Assembly: GCA_963575745.1 (NCBI GenBank)
Contig: CAUYUJ010018881.1
Coordinates: 62,001 to 126,000, forward strand
DNA length: 64,000 nucleotides
Direction of reading: 5' to 3'
DNA from: Prorocentrum cordatum
Lineage: Eukaryota; Sar; Dinophyceae; Prorocentrales; Prorocentraceae
In this document: positions 9,846-54,263 of the stretch, piece after piece
Numbering within the stretch: position 1 is the first letter of the stretch
Layout: every line of letters starts with the position of its first letter
Notes under the pieces: generated by a model
The model's database searches: none
The model's input: only the letters and a program-made list of their open reading frames with translations
What the model was told of the DNA's origin: nothing
Made by a program: the position numbers and the translations under genes

Positions 9846-9910
9846 TTACTACTAGACCTACTAACGTACTAATCTTACTAACTACTACTACTACTACTAC
9901 TACTACTACG

Positions 9911-9964
<54 letters not shown>

Positions 9965-10196
9965 ACGACTACTACTACTATTGGTGCTACTACTACTATG
10001 ATTATTATTCGCATTACTATTATTATTTCTATTAAAACTACTACTTCTATGTATACTTCTTCTACTACTACTACTACTACTACTACTTCTTCTACGACTA
10101 CTACTTCTACTACTACTACTACTACGGCTACGACTACGACGACTACTACGACTACTACCACTACGACTACTATTACTAGTATTATTATTACTATTG

Positions 10197-10251
<55 letters not shown>

Positions 10252-11146
10252 GACGACTACTACTACTACTACTACTACTACGACGAATACGGCTACTACT
10301 TCTAGTAACCTTATTTTTCTTTTTAATATTAATACTACGATTACTGCTACGACGACGACTGCTACGACTTTTAGTGTTATGACTACCACAACGGCGACGA
10401 CTATTACACCGTCTACCATTATTATTCTTACTACCACAACAACGACGATGACTATTTTTACTATTACCATTACGACCACTCTTACTGTTACTCTTATTAT
10501 TACTACTACTACTACTACTACTTCTACTACTACTACTACTACTACTACGATTAATATTATTACTACTACTACTACTGCTATTACTACTACTCCTACTACT
10601 ACTCTTAGTGCTACAAGTAGTAGCATTAGACAGATTACGACTGCTACTACTACTATTACTACCACTGCGATTTTTGCACTACTACTAGGATTACTAGTAC
10701 GGGTGCTTACAGCCTTTATGGCTACGGCTACTACTACTACCATTACTACTACTGCTTTTACTGCGACTACTACTACGACTACGACTATTACGACTACTAC
10801 TACTAGTACGTTTATTACATTCGTATCACTTCTACTACTACTACTACTATTACTACTACTGCTCCCATGACTACTACTACTACTTCGTCTGTTCATGCCA
10901 CGACTATTGCTATTACGACTACATACTAATACTACTTCAATTATTACTACTACTACTACCACTACTGATAATGCGACTACTCTTATTGGTATTGCTACTA
11001 CTACTGCTACCACTACTGCTAGTACTATTTGTACCACGACTACGAGTACTACTGTTATTACGAGTACTACTACTACTACACCACTACTACTACGATTGAT
11101 ATTCGTACCACTACAACCACATCGACTATCCGTATTTTGTTATTGT

Positions 11147-11180
<34 letters not shown>

Positions 11181-11395
11181 GCTACTACTGCTACTACTGC
11201 TACAATTACTACCACGACTACGACTACTACTATCACTACTGCTGCCACTAGTACTACTATCATTAATCGTAGCACGATTACTTTCACATCTACCACCACT
11301 ATTTGTTATTGTTGCGATTACTACGACAACTACTACGACTATTACTATTACAACTACTACGACTATAGCTATTACGACTACTACTACTACTACAT

Positions 11396-11435
<40 letters not shown>

Positions 11436-11754
11436 GACTGCTTCTACTACTGCTACTCCTATTCATGCCACTACTACGACCACGACTACTACAACGACTA
11501 TTATTTTTACGATTACTCATGCTATTAGTATGGCTACTTCTACTACTACCACTACCACTACTGCTACTACTACCACTACTCCAACTACTACCACTTTTAC
11601 TACTACCACTGAGTACCAGTCATGCGATTCGTATTGCTACAGGTACTACTAATACTGCTACTGCTGCTATTTCCATCGGTCCTACTCGTACGACTCGTAC
11701 TTCTAGCACTACTAGTACTACGAGTACGACTAACACTACTAGGGTTACGAGTAC

Positions 11755-11788
<34 letters not shown>

Positions 11789-11842
11789 CGTAGTCGTAGT
11801 CGTAGTCGTAGTCTTTGTAGTAATAGCAACAATTACAACAAA

Positions 11843-11875
<33 letters not shown>

Positions 11876-11960
11876 GGCGACAACGACGACGACGACTACT
11901 ACTACCACTGCTACTACTACAAATATGATTACTACTACTACGACGACTACGACTACTACG

Positions 11961-12007
<47 letters not shown>

Positions 12008-46869: not shown

Positions 46870-46994
46870 TCGATATCACAATCGATATCACAACCAACAT
46901 CATCATCAACATCATCGTCATCAGCGTCATCAGCATCATCATCATCATCACCAACATCATCGGGACACCATCATCATCATCATCACCTCATCAC

Positions 46995-47029
<35 letters not shown>

Positions 47030-47431
47030 ACATCAACATCATCATCATCACCATCGGGACACCATCATCGTCACCATCATCAGCATCACCAACATCATCA
47101 TCATCGGGACACCATCATCATCATCGGAACACAACCGTCATCATCACCATCTCATCATCATGATCATGCACAACATCATCAACATCATCATCATCATCAT
47201 CGGGACGCCATCATCCTCATCAGCAGCATCATCATAAACATCATCATCATCAGCATCATCATCATCATCATCTTCATCGGAACACCGTCATCATCGTCGC
47301 CACTATCATCATCACCATCAGCATCATCAACATCATCGGAGCACCATCATCATCAACATCAGCATCATCATCACCATCATTGGGCCACCATCATCAACAT
47401 CATCCTCATCATCCGTCACCATCCCCTTCAT
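46870..47431. repeat. (ATC)n array with CGGGACACC punctuation, left half
   Basis: ATC triplets interrupted every 40-90 bases by CATCGGGACACC (or CGGGACGCC). The same punctuated array resumes at 53776, so the two halves are one array split by the retrotransposon. Confidence 0.95.
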
Positions 47432-47509
47432 CATTGTAACAACTTTAGTGTGGTGTGTGCTGGGGAAGGGGCTGAGGGGCCGCACGACCGCTACCGTTGT
47501 GCTCAAGCT
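47432..47509 (+). repeat. split direct repeat A1
   Basis: 78 bases starting CATTGTAACAACTTTAGTGT, identical to 53530-53607. Confidence 0.95.
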
Positions 47510-47519
47510 TTTGAGGGGC

Positions 47520-47927
47520 ATGCAGAGTGCCGCCACGCGCTTTCTCTCGGAGTTCGCGCGCGGGGCATCGCAGGTCCTGGTGGTGTGGTCGGCGACCTCT
47601 GCTGCTCCGCCCGCTTGCCCACCGTGCGCGTGCGAGTGCTCCCCACGGTGCCACATTGCGTGTCCCGGCGTCAGCGGGGCCAGCATCGTGCACCTGGTCA
47701 GCGTTTGGTGCAGCCACGCGGTGGCCTTCTTGCTGGGCATCCTGCTGGGCGTGTTCGTGGTGCCCGCCTTCCTGAGCTGCAAGTGGCTGGTGGGAAGCAT
47801 CTGGAGGCGCTCGAGGACTGCGACCAGCGTCAGCACCGCGCCAGTGGAGGCTACGTCGGCCGAGGAGATCCGACTGCTAGCCGCAAAGCAAGCACGGGCC
47901 GCCATTCAGAATGCCTCAACCAGGTAA
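47520..47927 (+). CDS. small Cys-rich single-pass membrane protein of the element
   Basis: The first ATG is at 47520 (a GTG at 47448 inside repeat A1 would add 24 residues). It encodes 135 residues. The order is: a helical N-terminus MQSAATRFLSEFARGAS; a Pro/Cys segment APPACPPCACECSPRCHIAC (residues about 33-52); then SHAVAFLLGILLGVFVVPAF, a strong transmembrane helix (about 69-90); and a basic stop-transfer, SIWRRSRT. The tail is Ala/Glu-helical. The ORF overlaps the gag-like ORF by 17 bases, which argues for coupled translation. Such an upstream membrane ORF is not part of canonical DIRS or Ngaro elements. Its role is unknown; envelope-like or membrane-tethering roles are speculation. Confidence 0.7.
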   Translation: MQSAATRFLSEFARGASQVLVVWSATSAAPPACPPCACECSPRCHIACPGVSGASIVHLVSVWCSHAVAFLLGILLGVFVVPAFLSCKWLVGSIWRRSRTATSVSTAPVEATSAEEIRLLAAKQARAAIQNASTR

Positions 47928-49134
47928 TGTACACGTGATTCGCTATCGTGTGGGAGGCCCGCCAGTTTTCCATGAGAGGATCACGTTGTTCGATGTGCCT
48001 CCGTCTCGTGCTGCTATTGCTACTGTGGACGGAGATGTGTACGTGGAATCGGTCGAGGTTGACGGGGACGTCGAGGAGGTACGGCCGTTGCGAGGCTTGG
48101 GCGCACCTGTCTTCGGAGTCGCGGAGGCGAACGTCTATCGCTTCGGAGCCGTGCCCTCTGCTCCACAGGTGTGGGGCTTCCTGCGGGGCGTTGCCTTGCA
48201 GCTCGGCGCCGCCCTGCCTCCCTCGCCGTTTCTGCTGGCTGGTGTGGCGGGAGTGGGAGCCGCGTGGGTCCCTCAGGCGCTGGCGCTGGAGAATCCTGCG
48301 GCCGCCGCGGCCGCGGTGGTGGCTGCTGCTGGCGGAGGAGGGGCGGCGGTGCCCGCACCAGGCGACGGCGCTGGAGGCGGCGGCGGCGATGTTGTTCCTG
48401 GAGGCGCAGGCGCTCTTGCTGCGGCTCTGGGCGTGGCGATGCCTCCTCCCCTCGGGGGTGGCGGTGCTGGGGCGGGCGGCCCAGGCGGCGGCGCTGCAGC
48501 TGCTGGTGCGGCCGCGGCGGTGGCGCCATTGGCGGCGGCCGATCCTCGCGTCTTCCCGTTGGCGACGGATCACGCTGGTCGCCGCCAGCTGGACTACTCC
48601 GTCGCGCTGCGGGACGCTACCACCACGCCACGGGACGATTGGCCGATCAAGGGGCCAAGGACGACCCAGTGGTGCTTGGAGCACATGCGTCGGAACGCGG
48701 GCGGCCCTCTGGCCTGGCACTCGAAGTGGAAGGCGGAGGCGAGGCTTCGCGACTCGGATGCCATCTGCCAGCAGCATGAGATGAACTGCGGGCTGCTGGA
48801 GATGGCCACCTGCTACGACCAGCTCAACGCGTCAGAGCTGGCGACCTTTGAGCTGGTCAGTCGGCAGACTCAGCTCATCGAGGAGCGCCGCTACGAGGAG
48901 GCGGTGGCTGCGCAGGTGGCGGCCGAGGAGAAGAAGGACAAGAAGAAAGGCCTCGGGGCGAGCGAGAGTCTGCTCGCGTCGGAGGCCGAGCACTACATGG
49001 GCGTGTCGGCGAGCAAGGGCAACCTCTGCATCTCGCCAATGCTCACGGAGTTCATTGCAGAGCAGCTGAAGGCGGAGGCAGCTGTTGCCAAGGAGAGGCG
49101 CAAAGCCCGCGAGGAGCGGGCGGCGCGCGCATAG
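47911..49134 (+). CDS. gag-like structural ORF of the element
   Basis: ATG at 47911, 407 residues. Residues 1-75 form a beta-rich N-terminal part (VHVIRYRVGGPPVFHERITL). Residues 100-200 are an Ala/Gly/Pro low-complexity linker. From about 240 onward a conserved-looking domain contains WPIKGPRTTQWCLEHMRRNA, GGPLAWHSKWKAEARL and LLEMATCYDQLNASELATFE, then a coiled-coil with basic clusters (EEKKDKKKG, KERRKAREERAARA). I recall this WP-x-x-GPRTT-x-W domain as recurrent in dinoflagellate DIRS-like elements, but cannot search here. Position before RT, charged C-terminus and absence of enzymatic motifs support a gag (nucleoprotein) role. A 143-base gap separates it from the pol ORF. Confidence 0.7.
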   Translation: MPQPGNVHVIRYRVGGPPVFHERITLFDVPPSRAAIATVDGDVYVESVEVDGDVEEVRPLRGLGAPVFGVAEANVYRFGAVPSAPQVWGFLRGVALQLGAALPPSPFLLAGVAGVGAAWVPQALALENPAAAAAAVVAAAGGGGAAVPAPGDGAGGGGGDVVPGGAGALAAALGVAMPPPLGGGGAGAGGPGGGAAAAGAAAAVAPLAAADPRVFPLATDHAGRRQLDYSVALRDATTTPRDDWPIKGPRTTQWCLEHMRRNAGGPLAWHSKWKAEARLRDSDAICQQHEMNCGLLEMATCYDQLNASELATFELVSRQTQLIEERRYEEAVAAQVAAEEKKDKKKGLGASESLLASEAEHYMGVSASKGNLCISPMLTEFIAEQLKAEAAVAKERRKAREERAARA

Positions 49135-49277
49135 GCCCTCGGAAGCTTCTCCCAGGCGGGTGCAGGCACCTCGGTGCCGCCTGGGCGACCCCTGCATTTT
49201 TCGTGGCGACCAGCGTCGCCCCCGTCTTTGATTGAGGTTGGGAGACCTCGGCTCGCCAGCCCCCTTGCAGCTCCGCA

Positions 49278-52200
49278 ATGAAGCCTGCAGGGCGTCAGCG
49301 TGACGTGTTCCCTCTGCCGCCGCTCGCGCTGGATGAGCGCGCTGCTTCCTGTCGCAGCCGGCGGGGCCAGCAGCGGGCGCAGCGTGGAGCCGCGTGGAGG
49401 CGTTGGGCTAACGACGGCATCGCGGCGCTCAACCAGCTGAGTGGCCACGGTGCAGGTGTCGCGGCGCCGCCAGGGCTGACGTCATCAGCTGCCCAGGCGA
49501 GCGCGCTGGACCACATCAGCCAGGCCTTTCGCGATTTTCCTGTGCCTCCTGACTATCATGAGGACCGAGTTTCAGGCGAAGCAGCCCTTGCAGAGCTGCT
49601 CGCTTCGGCGCCTGGGTATTCCGCGGAGTCTCAGCGCGTCAAGCCCTACAGCAAGGACCTGGTGTCCTGGCCCGACATGTCTACCGCACCTGTGGAGGTT
49701 ACAGAGTTGGTGGATCAGGCCGATCGTGAATGCTTGTTGGGATGGAGACGGACCGTGCTCAAAGGTGAGATGTCGGCCTCTGATTCCCGAGATGCGCCAG
49801 CTCCGCGGCGCCCGTACGTGGACCCGATTTTGGCCAACAACCCTCGCGCCTACGCTGGTTTCGTTGGGAAGTTGCTTCAGGGTGGCATGATTAGCTTCCG
49901 CGTGGCGCGTGCTGCTGATCCTTACAGTTTGGGGTTTTTCTTTGCTGAGAAGGTGGGTAAGGGCACGTTGAGACTCGTGTTCGACACAAGAGTGGCGAAC
50001 GAGGATTTCGAGCCCCCGCCCAAGACGACGCTTCCGACGGCTGCTGCTTGGTCCGCCTTGGAGTCGCAGCGTCCCGTCGTTCTAGCGCAGGGTGACATCC
50101 AATGTGCATTCTATCACATGCTGGTGCCAAAAGGGATGGCGGAATGCTTCATGTTGCCCACTATTTCAAATCAGTTGTTGGGGATTACTCACGTCGACGG
50201 ATTGCCAGTGGCTAGCGATTGCTATCTTCAGCCCATGGTGCGCGTGTTACCGATGGGATGGAGTTGGTCGCTTCTGTTTTGTCAGAGCATCATGCGCAGG
50301 GCTCTAGTGGAGAACGGGTTCAGTGACGGATCGTTGATCGAGGACGGCCGCCCCAGTCCTGTGCTGCACTCGCCTGTGAGTTTAGCTGCTGCTGGATACG
50401 TTGATAATTTTGCAGTCGTGGGTTGTGATGCAAACATTGTGACGGCAAAGAGAGATCAGATTACGCGGGCGCTTGAATCGTGGGGGTTACCTATTCACTC
50501 TATCGATGCGGCTTCGCCGAAGACTGTCTTCACTGGTCTCGAGATCGACGGTGAAAAAGGCACTTTGCGGGTGAAGCCCTCCAACGTCCTGCGCCTGCGG
50601 CAGGCCATTCTGGCTGTCCTGCGGCGTGGGGCGGCCTCGCCCCGCCTGCTGGAAGTCTTGCTCGGGCACATCACGTGGGCGATGATTTGTAAAAGAGAGA
50701 CCTTGTCTATTCTACACTCCGTCTACGCTTTCAAGTCCCTCAAGGACCCCAACGTCAAGCCTTTGTGGAACTCGGTAAGGTTTGAGCCCTGGTGCGTGGC
50801 TAGTACGCTGCCTCTGTGGTCCTCGCATTTGGGTATTCCTTGGGGTTCGCGGGTCTCCGCTTCGTACGCGTCTCCTATTGGCGTCGGCGTCTGTACTCGA
50901 GATCTGGACTGGCCCCAGGTGGCCGACATGGGGAGGGTTACGGAGCGGTGGAGGTACAGGTGCACGGCAGCAGTTACAGCAAGGGCTAATGCATTGGGGC
51001 TGGATGAGCTCCACCTGGAGGAGGGCATCTTGGACTCCGTCGCCGTGGACTACGTCGAATCGTTCAACCCCGAGGGCTCCGTCAAGGGCTTTCTGGAGGT
51101 CCCCAAGGAGATCATGGAGGCCTCAGCTTGGGCCACGGTCTTCTCGAGGAGGCATTGGGATCCCATGAGGAACATCTTGGAGCTCGAGGGGGAGGCGTTG
51201 CACGACGCCGTTCGCCACGCGTCCCGTAACGTCAGCTTGCACCATCGTCGTCATCTCTTCTTCGTCGACAATTTGCCATTGGCTTTAGCCGCTGGGAAAG
51301 GGCGGGGGCGCAAGCCTGTCCTTCGGCGACCTTTGCGGAACATTGCTGCCCTCGCTCTTGCAGTCAACTTCCGATGCTATGTGCGGTGGCTGCCCTCTGA
51401 GCTGAATGTAGCGGACGGCCCGTCTCGGCATGGCTTCTTCCACGGCAAAAGCTTCGAGGAGGCGGCCGCGGGCGCGCCGGGGACAGCCAGTGGCGGTCCA
51501 GCGCTCCATCGCGCTGAGGGTCGCTCGGAAGCAGCAGCATCCACGGCCGATGCAGCTGGCGGAGGGCGCCATCAGCTTTCTGGAGATGTCTGCCGTCACG
51601 GACTCGACCAGGGAGCGCTACAGGGGTCGCGCCGAGAGGTTCCTCGAGTGGGTGACTTGGCGCGGCCTGGACTTTCACTCGGCCCCGCAGCTGGGCGTGG
51701 CGCTGGTGGCGTTCATGACCGACCTGGCCTTGGACGGGTTCGACTCCGCCACGGGGAGGATGTCAGTGGCCGCTCTGAGGCATTTCTTGCCCCAGCTGCT
51801 CGGCGGCAGGCGTCCTCTCCCTCGAGCGGCCCGAGCCCTCGACGGCTGGCGGCGGCTGGTCCCCCCGCAGATGCGGCTCCCACTGCCGCGAGCTGCGGCC
51901 ATGGCAGTTGCTGGTTGGATGATCTCTCGCAACTTGCCCAGCATGGGGGTGTTCGTGGCGTTGGTGTTTCATGCGCACCTGCGGCCCTCGGAGGCTTACC
52001 GTCTGAGAGTGAGCTCGTTGGTGCCGCCAATAGCTGGGACGGGGTTCAGCTCATGGGGGATCATCGTCAACAACGCGAAAGCAGGCCGGCCTGGCAAGAC
52101 GGGCGAGACCGACGAGTCGGTGCTGGTGGATGCGCCAGAGCTCTGGCCCGTGCTGCTCGCGCTGAAGGCCAACAGGGAGCCCAGCGCCAGCCTGTGGAAC

Positions 52201-53393
52201 TTCAGGCCCGCCGACGTCCGCCTGATGTTCGCCCAAGGCTTGAGGGAGCTCGGGCTGCAGAAGGAGTCCCCGTCCTTGTACACCCTCCGCCATGGGGGGG
52301 CCTTGCGCGACTTGCTCTCGGGGTCCCGATCGTTGGCGGAAGTGAAAGAGAGGGGCAGATGGGTGACGGACAAGAGCTTGAGACGGTATGGCAAGCGCAC
52401 TCGGATGCAACAGAGAATCGGAGACCTGCCCGTCGAAGTCAGTCGCTTTGGAAATCAGGTGCTCGAAAGATTGGCGGAGCTCATCGTGTGCAGTTTTGTG
52501 AAAGGCCATTTCCCGCTGGCTGTTCCTCTTCAGCCCATGCCTGCCGTCCCGCCAGTCGCAAAGCGGGCGCCAGTTCTGACCATGCGCTAGCTTCTCGTTT
52601 GAACGGGGCGTTTCGACGTGCTCACGCGTGGGCTTCTCGCCGCAGGCGGCTCGTTTTGCCTGTGCTGGGGCCTCATGGGGCCCCCATATGCAAAGCGCTG
52701 CGCAGTCGCGGTTTGGGTTGCCCATCGTTCGGAGCAGGTCGGAACGCGAGTCTAGGTTTGACTGAGCGAGTAGTGGTCAATCGAATCCTGGGCTGGATTC
52801 GGTCGTCCGCTGTCTGCGCTTTGTGGATCTCCTTGTCTCGTAGTACCTGGACGCAGCCAGGCGTCCCGCCTTGCCGTTCTGTGGCGGACCCTTGGGGTCG
52901 CAAGTGCGGCGCGTCCAATTCAGTGTTGCTCCCTGCCTTTCTGTGTGACAATGTCGAGATGCAGGCTGCCATTCAGATTTTGCGTGCGTGCGTGAAGCAT
53001 CATGTGCCTGTGTGTTTCGAGCATCCTCGTAGCAGTTTGATCTGGCATGTTCCTCAGCTAGTTGAGCTAATGAACCATTCTGCGTGTCTCAACGTTCAGG
53101 TGGACCTGTGTCAATTTGGTGCCGCAGCTCGCGCTCCCACACGTGTGTGTTGTTGGCGCTGCCCCAGCTTGTCTCGCCTGGCTCGCGTGTGTGATCACGG
53201 TAAAGAGTGCTGCTCGTTTTCGGGGCGACCTCACATGCGTTTTGACTGCCGCACGGCAAAAGGCGTAGCGTGCAGGCACAAGGCTGCCCGCTTTCCCGCT
53301 CGAGCAGCCGAGCTTGTGGCAGATTCAATCGTTTCGTCGATCGAGGAATTGTCGCAGGCCCGATCTTATTTCTTGGGCGGCCTGCGGCCATGA
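49278..53393 (+). CDS. RT-RNase H (and C5-MTase-like tail) polyprotein
   Basis: A 1371-codon open frame. RT occupies about residues 180-480: LRLVFDTRVANEDF, motif A QGDIQCAFYHM, LPMGWSWSLLFCQ and catalytic box YVDN (residues 374-377), then ESWGLP and TGLEID. RNase H, about 520-720, shows FVDNLPLALAAGKGR (near 662) and RWLPSELNVADGPSR (near 704), the DIRS-type N-x-ADGPSR end. Residues about 725-1110 are probably not selected as protein, because the recombinase is encoded there in the +1 frame. From about 1120 an MTase-like domain resumes. The second Asp of the RT box is Asn, which may reduce activity or be lineage-typical. ATG 49278 is the first in the frame after the gag stop. Confidence 0.8.
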   Translation: MKPAGRQRDVFPLPPLALDERAASCRSRRGQQRAQRGAAWRRWANDGIAALNQLSGHGAGVAAPPGLTSSAAQASALDHISQAFRDFPVPPDYHEDRVSGEAALAELLASAPGYSAESQRVKPYSKDLVSWPDMSTAPVEVTELVDQADRECLLGWRRTVLKGEMSASDSRDAPAPRRPYVDPILANNPRAYAGFVGKLLQGGMISFRVARAADPYSLGFFFAEKVGKGTLRLVFDTRVANEDFEPPPKTTLPTAAAWSALESQRPVVLAQGDIQCAFYHMLVPKGMAECFMLPTISNQLLGITHVDGLPVASDCYLQPMVRVLPMGWSWSLLFCQSIMRRALVENGFSDGSLIEDGRPSPVLHSPVSLAAAGYVDNFAVVGCDANIVTAKRDQITRALESWGLPIHSIDAASPKTVFTGLEIDGEKGTLRVKPSNVLRLRQAILAVLRRGAASPRLLEVLLGHITWAMICKRETLSILHSVYAFKSLKDPNVKPLWNSVRFEPWCVASTLPLWSSHLGIPWGSRVSASYASPIGVGVCTRDLDWPQVADMGRVTERWRYRCTAAVTARANALGLDELHLEEGILDSVAVDYVESFNPEGSVKGFLEVPKEIMEASAWATVFSRRHWDPMRNILELEGEALHDAVRHASRNVSLHHRRHLFFVDNLPLALAAGKGRGRKPVLRRPLRNIAALALAVNFRCYVRWLPSELNVADGPSRHGFFHGKSFEEAAAGAPGTASGGPALHRAEGRSEAAASTADAAGGGRHQLSGDVCRHGLDQGALQGSRREVPRVGDLARPGLSLGPAAGRGAGGVHDRPGLGRVRLRHGEDVSGRSEAFLAPAARRQASSPSSGPSPRRLAAAGPPADAAPTAASCGHGSCWLDDLSQLAQHGGVRGVGVSCAPAALGGLPSESELVGAANSWDGVQLMGDHRQQRESRPAWQDGRDRRVGAGGCARALARAARAEGQQGAQRQPVELQARRRPPDVRPRLEGARAAEGVPVLVHPPPWGGLARLALGVPIVGGSEREGQMGDGQELETVWQAHSDATENRRPARRSQSLWKSGARKIGGAHRVQFCERPFPAGCSSSAHACRPASRKAGASSDHALASRLNGAFRRAHAWASRRRRLVLPVLGPHGAPICKALRSRGLGCPSFGAGRNASLGLTERVVVNRILGWIRSSAVCALWISLSRSTWTQPGVPPCRSVADPWGRKCGASNSVLLPAFLCDNVEMQAAIQILRACVKHHVPVCFEHPRSSLIWHVPQLVELMNHSACLNVQVDLCQFGAAARAPTRVCCWRCPSLSRLARVCDHGKECCSFSGRPHMRFDCRTAKGVACRHKAARFPARAAELVADSIVSSIEELSQARSYFLGGLRP
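51430..52590 (+). CDS. tyrosine recombinase (YR) of the element
   Basis: ATG 51430, 386 residues, +1 relative to the RT frame and wholly nested in it. The N-terminal half resembles a SAM-like core-binding domain (TRERYRGRAERFLEWVTWRG). The catalytic tetrad is visible: Arg185 in HAHLRPSEAYRL, YTLRHGGA with Arg287-His288, Trp311 in RGRW at the place of the third-box His/Trp, and nucleophile Tyr320 in RRYGKR. These are the boxes of DIRS-type recombinases, which integrate a circular cDNA without a DDE integrase. The preserved overlapping frame with all catalytic residues suggests a functional enzyme. It could be expressed by frameshift or by internal initiation. Confidence 0.85.
   Translation: MASSTAKASRRRPRARRGQPVAVQRSIALRVARKQQHPRPMQLAEGAISFLEMSAVTDSTRERYRGRAERFLEWVTWRGLDFHSAPQLGVALVAFMTDLALDGFDSATGRMSVAALRHFLPQLLGGRRPLPRAARALDGWRRLVPPQMRLPLPRAAAMAVAGWMISRNLPSMGVFVALVFHAHLRPSEAYRLRVSSLVPPIAGTGFSSWGIIVNNAKAGRPGKTGETDESVLVDAPELWPVLLALKANREPSASLWNFRPADVRLMFAQGLRELGLQKESPSLYTLRHGGALRDLLSGSRSLAEVKERGRWVTDKSLRRYGKRTRMQQRIGDLPVEVSRFGNQVLERLAELIVCSFVKGHFPLAVPLQPMPAVPPVAKRAPVLTMR
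52640..53393 (+). CDS. C5-methyltransferase-like domain of the element
   Basis: This is the C-terminal part of the 49278 frame (residues about 1121-1371). The features are a motif I-like VLPVLGPHGAPICKALRSRG; ALWISLSRST followed by GVPPCRSVADPWG, at the place of the catalytic PC-x-x-x-S loop; and FEHPRSSLIWHVPQLVELM, where EHP replaces ENP/ENV of motif VI (Glu near residue 1248). These are followed by VDLCQFGAAARAPTRVCCW and a Cys/His-rich end (CDHGKECCSF, CRHKAA). The pattern GPP-LRS...ENP-SS-LW...D-CQFG-x-x-x-K/R-PT recurs in algal and oomycete retroelement methyltransferases as I recall them. The expected catalytic Cys is not where anticipated (LWIS), so activity is doubtful. Confidence 0.5.
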
Positions 53394-53413
53394 GTTTTGT
53401 GTTACACAATGTA

Positions 53414-53532
53414 CGTCTGTGCTGCCCGCGAGTGTCCTGGTCACTCTGGGAGTCGAGGCCGTCGTTACCTGCCATCGCCACCGTCAGCTTCTCTAAAAAG
53501 AATGTTATGGCCTCGGGGACCCGACCTGGCAT
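53414..53532 (+). repeat. split direct repeat B1
   Basis: 119 bases starting CGTCTGTGCTGCCCGCGAGT. It recurs at 53657-53775 with about three internal transitions and a two-base change near the right end. It abuts A2 through the shared GGCAT/CATTG. Confidence 0.95.
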
Positions 53533-53607
53533 TGTAACAACTTTAGTGTGGTGTGTGCTGGGGAAGGGGCTGAGGGGCCGCACGACCGCTACCGTTGTGC
53601 TCAAGCT
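53530..53607 (+). repeat. split direct repeat A2
   Basis: Identical to A1 over 78 bases and directly joined to B1. The B1-A2 junction GGCATTGTAAC is what a B2-to-A1 circle junction would look like. Confidence 0.95.
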
Positions 53608-53656
53608 CCCGAACCCACACGCCCTCGCTTGAGGGTTTTGAATCGATTTAAGTCTG

Positions 53657-53775
53657 CGTCTGTGCTGCCCGCGAGTGTCCTGGTCACTCTGGGAGTCGAG
53701 GCCGCCGTTACCTGTCATCGTCACCGTCAGCTTCTCTAAAAAGAATGTTATGGCCTCGGGGACCCGACTCGGCAT
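53657..53775 (+). repeat. split direct repeat B2 (right end)
   Basis: Second copy of B. It ends at CTCGGCAT, after which the host ATC array resumes. A 49-base spacer separates it from A2. Confidence 0.95.
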
Positions 53776-54231
53776 CATCATTATCATTCTCATTTTCATC
53801 GGGACACCATCGTCGTCATCATCATCATCATTACCATCATCATCACCATCGGGACACCATCATCATCATAACCATCAGCATCAACAGCATCATCATCATC
53901 ACACTCATCGTCATCATCATCATCATCATCGGGACACCATCATCATCTTCATCATCACCATTACCATCACATCATCTGATCATCATCTACATCATCAGGA
54001 GCATCATCATCATCAACATAATCATCGGGGCACCGTCCTCATCAGCAACATCATCATCAACATCATCATCATCATCGGGGCACCATCATCATCACCACCA
54101 TCACCATCATCAACAACATCATCATGAACATCGTCAACATCATCATCATCAGCATCATCATCATCATCATCATCGGGACACCGTCATCATCAGCAGCATC
54201 CGCATCATCATCGTCATCATCATCATCATCG

Positions 54232-54263
<32 letters not shown>

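Follow-up and report, generated by a model that had tools for sequence, protein, structure and literature searches.

A full-length tyrosine recombinase retrotransposon in CAT triplet arrays of the dinoflagellate Prorocentrum cordatum, with its recombinase gene nested in pol

Retrotransposons of the DIRS order carry reverse transcriptase (RT) and ribonuclease H (RNase H) together with a tyrosine recombinase (YR) in place of a DDE integrase. PAT elements are described as the split-direct-repeat members of the methyltransferase-bearing DIRS group (PMC4157794), and DIRS-like and PAT-like elements are reported to be poorly resolved in trees (PMC6681497). In DIRS1-like elements the catalytic part of the YR is described as lying outside the overlap with pol (PMC3266345). 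Dinoflagellate elements with A-coding-B-A-B ends and a DNA methyltransferase (DNMT) in Pol, in two domain orders, were published in 2018 (PMC5890265). In this study, we analysed a 64,000-nt stretch of Prorocentrum cordatum contig CAUYUJ010018881.1 (positions 62,001 to 126,000; the window), which contains a full-length YR retrotransposon of 6,344 nt at 47432-53775 on the + strand.

This element has RT and RNase H and a YR instead of a DDE integrase, and we consider it likely to be a full-length DIRS-order retrotransposon that has split direct repeats of the PAT type, is part of a dinoflagellate group and moves by exchange at a CAT core. An earlier note on the window had proposed an intermediate lineage combining two layouts. 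This reading is not supported, since PAT is defined with both traits (PMC4157794) and A-B-A-B ends with a DNMT in Pol are described in Symbiodinium (PMC5890265). The same publications favour a plain PAT/TOC3-type or SymbioDIRS element within the range of published variation, as does a gag without a zinc knuckle, as in TOC3. Complete nesting of the YR gene, a membrane-protein gene (ORF0), array targeting and loss of a catalytic motif are absent from the descriptions compared, which makes an ordinary element doubtful.

Ends, genes and copies of the element

The element and its flanks comprise the following features (ORF, open reading frame; TRF, Tandem Repeats Finder).

46898-47413: left CAT/ATC triplet array (target), TRF
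47432-47509, + strand: A1, left terminal repeat, starting with the CAT core (CAT-TGTAAC...)
47520-47927, + strand: ORF0, 135 aa, CPPCACEC motif, one predicted membrane helix (aa ~59-85)
47911-49134, + strand: gag-like ORF, 407 aa
49278-53393, + strand: pol frame, 1371 aa, with RT, RNase H, a linker through the YR gene and a methyltransferase-like C-terminus
51430-52590, + strand: YR, 386 aa, in the +1 frame of pol, Cre-like predicted fold
52650-53390, + strand: C5-methyltransferase-like domain (the tail), no catalytic PC motif (SR instead), EHP for ENP
53414-53532, + strand: B1
53530-53607, + strand: A2, at the B-CAT-A junction
53657-53775, + strand: B2, right terminal repeat, CAT core at its end
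53808-54263: right CAT/ATC triplet array (target), TRF

Repeat comparison agrees with the earlier note's description of a complete element with split direct repeats: A1 and A2 are identical (78/78 nt), B1 and B2 match at 114/119 positions with all five differences C/T, and the order is A1...B1-A2...B2, the PAT-like A1-B1-A2-B2 arrangement, in which the CAT at 53530-53532 is common to B1 and A2. The left boundary reads CTTCAT followed, within the element, by CAT-TGTAAC, and the right boundary GACTCGG-CAT followed, outside it, by CATCATTATC. The ends are direct A/B repeats; the DIRS1-like combination of inverted terminal repeats and an internal complementary region was not found, and the sole inverted pair detected lies within gag. 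The gag, pol and recombinase frames are open, as the note had it, and so is ORF0, which it had missed and which precedes gag, overlapping its start by 17 nt.

Searches of the genome covered 4.13 Gb in 21,875 contigs. The search for copies with matching A/B repeats had been set beforehand as a check, and such copies were found: A1 gave at least 41 matches, and the twenty stretches examined include a family 1 of about 93-98% identity (L011-L018, L023, L024, L026, L027 and the partial L025) and a subfamily 2 of roughly 72-80% identity in aligned pieces (L019, L020, L021, L028-L030). The same A...B-A-B ends occur in genome copies on many contigs with differing flanks, and the repeat pattern is therefore not due to chance. 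L022 carries the left flank of the window at 99.9% identity over 3,303 nt and is therefore taken as a second contig covering the window locus; L014 and L015 have a common flank and were counted as one insertion. In some of the other copies all frames are open; in many they are not. L021 (C16222:779536-781369) is a 1.8-kb internally deleted derivative that keeps both ends; it is likely non-autonomous and mobilised in trans.

Ratios of nonsynonymous to synonymous substitution (dN/dS) were obtained for ORF0, gag, pol, YR and the tail by comparing the window copy with L019 and L020. The in-frame values lie between 0.15 and 0.31 overall (gag 0.18 and 0.15, YR 0.23 and 0.21, respectively), against 0.99-2.56 in the other frames of ORF0, YR and the tail. 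Because ORF0 is low in frame (0.30 and 0.24) and high in its other frames (1.27-1.60), it is regarded as a gene, and its sequence indicates a Cys-rich membrane protein under purifying selection. A genome search with ORF0 returned 96 matches, merged into 90 loci, at 66 of which the tail is matched on the same strand, 0.7-7.4 kb further downstream; this pairing used 76 of the 145 tail rows, more distant rows and secondary fragments being left out. ORF0 is recognisable in L031, L032, L033 and L034, and at E 1e-3 no match was obtained in either L035 or L036. By eye, an ORF-like stretch upstream of gag in L035 (L035:1-200) has a hydrophobic run without the ORF0 Cys motif, and is perhaps a diverged ORF0. 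Outside the family, the similarity of ORF0 to P0013 was not equalled in shuffling (0/1000), while those to P0005 (214/1000) and P0009 (125/1000) were not significant. Pattern search detected no CCHC-type zinc knuckle in gag, the zinc-finger feature of Pat1.

The window copy has 6.1 private substitutions per kb, 39 in all, of which 13 are synonymous and 20 nonsynonymous, and is thus neither brand new nor badly decayed. The five B1/B2 differences arose in its B2, since B2 has the B1 letter in 12/12 other aligned family-1 copies. These 119 nt (53657-53775) hold five of the 39 private changes, all C/T, far above their share, which may reflect gene conversion or a template switch. In RNase H, codon 50865 encodes Tyr in place of the first catalytic Asp (motif SASYASP), a position that is Asp in 13/13 other readable copies and gapped in L020. 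The window copy is therefore probably not autonomous, judging from its sequence, although the Tyr may be a sequencing error. Two near-invariant YR columns are also altered, one from Tyr to His, absent from the other rows, and one from Ser to Leu, common to L018. Given the RNase H Tyr, the B2 changes and these two columns, the earlier suggestion that the element may be active or recently active is not supported for this copy, and the RNase H change led us to reject it as an active one. L034, from a related family, looks younger (A 77/77, B 120/120).

The recombinase gene and the methyltransferase-like tail within pol

The YR gene lies wholly within the 1,371-codon Pol frame (RT-RNase H-linker-methyltransferase-like), on the same strand as the other genes, which confirms the overlapping-frame recombinase proposed previously; an inverted YR of the Kangaroo type was not found. 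The accompanying statement that all recombinase residues are present was inexact: in the window the HxxR box has Tyr in place of His, as in at least 90% of aligned relatives, and the diverged copy L031 has His. Across the YR gene the pol frame is free of in-register stops in 11/12 family-1 copies (L018 has one stop; L013 is frameshifted). L032, L033, L034 and L035 each have a single open frame from RT-RNase H to the methyltransferase-like domain with the YR in the +1 frame; the YR frame of L032 is itself interrupted, and L036 has the open frame, with its YR matched over the N-terminal half only. The nested arrangement, as predicted from these frames, recurs in diverged lineages. In a test of the overlap by synonymous shuffling, the window gave 1/5000, with a combined value of 5e-6 over five loci.

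Pol is probably, though not proven to be, a single polyprotein whose frame continues across the YR gene. Several observations weigh against this. When the dinucleotide context of codon junctions was held, the shuffling p rose to 0.05 for the window and to 0.11 for the five loci together, and gag, a control without overlap, also has fewer off-frame stops than its shuffles (13/1000). With a dN/dS of 1.5, the Pol frame within the YR (the linker) shows no constraint as protein, and stops occur in the Pol overlap of the decayed subfamily-2 copies L019 (one) and L020 (three), in addition to the one in L018. In L031, frameshifts put the long open frame partly in the YR frame; of the 145 tail matches, 35 lie within open frames of at least 1,000 codons, some of them mixed in this way. 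Alternatively, the tail may be a separate ORF4, produced through re-initiation, a frameshift out of the YR or a trans-spliced mRNA of its own; the open Pol frame would then be a by-product of GC-rich codons. The unconstrained linker, the stops and the non-significant context-preserving shuffle favour a separate ORF4, as does a Met at the tail start of P0039, P0040 and L032, where the window has TTG, so that these three may have a start of their own. However, no tail-start ATG exists in the window family (TTG in 13/13 aligned family-1 rows, TTA in L020), and selection extends up to the tail start although there is no ATG. The domain and RT-RNase H share one stop-free frame in L033, L034, L035 and L036 (1530, 1416, 1518 and 1343 codons), and P0017, a single protein of 1188 aa, contains the domain together with RT and RNase H. 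A separate ORF4 is accordingly considered unlikely, and the polyprotein is kept as the probable product. Another idea, that the conserved YR end is a signal for splicing or slippage, was abandoned, the stretch being too short for a test.

The presence of a methyltransferase-like tail, claimed previously, stands; the tail looks like a C5-cytosine methyltransferase rather than the Dam type attributed to DIRS, and has no catalytic Cys motif. The C5 likeness comes from motifs and a predicted fold with a middling Z score, which point to homology with C5-like domains; Pfam detected no methyltransferase domain in the window. In the window family, L032, P0039 and P0040, SR/PR stands where the PC motif would be. 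The window family has lost the catalytic Cys motif, yet substitution patterns indicate that the tail protein is still under selection.

The RT of Pol has the motifs GDIQCAFY, MGWSWS and YVDN. Motif C (50394-50420 and relatives) is YVDN rather than YxDD across this dinoflagellate group, and YCDN in P0015/P0016. Among the RT-region matches in the protein database, 14/18 are from P. cordatum and 1/18 from Amphidinium carterae. PMC11453091 gives a GC content of 59.7%, near that of the window. A scan of viral contigs with pol and YR gave no relative.

Target arrays and the proposed cycle

Insertion into an ATC/CAT array, as the earlier note had suggested, is evident from the TRF arrays on both flanks. 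Among 24 distinct insertions with a readable flank, 21 sit in CAT-type triplet arrays, taken as present where CAT-type triplet runs cover at least 0.2 of a 100-bp flank; the count comprises 16/18 in a first set, the further passes L025, L031, L032, L033 and L034, and the failing L036, L035 being left out as its boundary is unreadable. The corresponding background, a local and not a genome-wide figure, is 1.4% of random 100-bp stretches of the window outside 46.8-54.4 kb. CAT/ATC arrays are a preferred target. Elements of the L033 type have a TG/TGA core and an ATG-strand array. The array beside L036 (L036:1-300) is of the TATG/TATA and not the CAT type, and relatives may thus use arrays of different kinds. 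The window holds another triplet array at 9876-12007 (2.1 kb, TRF consensus TAC, GC 0.375), in which blastn found no element. That the A/B repeats or array flanks are assembly artefacts is very improbable: arrays are hard to assemble and several copies adjoin N runs, but the explanation is already contradicted by an A...B-A-B block present on many contigs with differing flanks at 93-98% identity, and by the second contig, L022, with the same locus at 99.9% over 3303 bp.

In the proposed cycle, a transcript would run from A1 to the 3' repeats and be translated into ORF0, gag and the Pol polyprotein (RT-RNase H-linker-methyltransferase-like), and the YR would be read from the +1 frame within Pol. 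The cDNA would be made by Pol, and the internal B1-CAT-A2 block would serve as template from which the B-CAT-A junction is rebuilt in circular DNA. The YR would then recombine the CAT core of the circle with a CAT of a genomic triplet array, so that the insert would have CAT on both sides and no target duplication. The methyltransferase-like domain may act as a non-catalytic module in the window family and, judged by motifs, as a catalytic one in its cousins. The anatomy, the nesting, selection on the frames, the common ends and the targeting of arrays are observed, whereas the transcript, the circle, recombination on CAT, what ORF0 and the tail do, and translation of the tail within Pol are inferred. 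This cycle has to be set against two facts: three insertions (L014/L015, L017 and L036) lie outside CAT-type arrays, and neither circle nor transcript has been seen.

Comparison with described elements

Little is known about how YR retrotransposons choose their targets; here, a short CAT core and array flanks in many copies open the crossover site to direct tests. For work on gene overlap and recoding in dinoflagellates, a recombinase gene that lies completely within a second coding frame is a clear case. The methyltransferase-like domain, under selection even after loss of its catalytic motif, is relevant to the question of why such domains are found in retrotransposons. With ORF0, a membrane protein joins the gag, pol and YR known from descriptions of this element type. 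Literature searches, at the level of titles and the openings of abstracts, yielded no paper on this Prorocentrum element, on triplet-array targeting by a YR retrotransposon or on ORF0. We tentatively suggest, at somewhat less than even chances, a dinoflagellate-specific YR superfamily apart from DIRS1, PAT, Ngaro and VIPER, marked by Pol through a nested YR, a conserved ORF0, CAT-core integration into CAT microsatellites as a safe haven, and a retired methyltransferase module in one branch.

The closest described element, SymbioDIRS-Dnmt3 of Symbiodinium, likewise has a dinoflagellate host, A-coding-B-A-B ends and a separate YR ORF, and it has a DNMT-type domain in the RT polyprotein, as is probable for the window element (PMC5890265). 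Its Dnmt3 is described as keeping the key residues and was found by the Pfam DNA_methylase model, whereas the window tail has no Pfam match and has lost the PC motif; a Dnmt3-type DNMT with conserved catalytic residues was not found in the window family. The parts of the SymbioDIRS-Dnmt3 description compared here make no mention of a nested YR, ORF0 or array targeting (PMC5890265). With the PAT group (Pat1, TOC3, Kangaroo) the element shares split direct repeats, RT-RNase H, a YR and probably a methyltransferase-type domain, and with TOC3 also the missing zinc knuckle and a same-strand YR; compared by description, it differs in having its methyltransferase-like domain on the 3' side of the nested YR and in the C5-like look of that domain (PMC4157794). 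DIRS1-like elements also have overlapping YR and pol frames, but the window YR is entirely inside pol (PMC3266345). Ngaro elements resemble it in split direct repeats, A1-[ORFs]-B1A2B2, and in a length of about 6 kb (PMC8547959), and are described as having no methyltransferase domain (PMC4157794), unlike the window element with its C5-like tail. The basic kind of element is thus known, and its unusual features are the nested-YR layout, the target choice and the extra membrane-protein gene.
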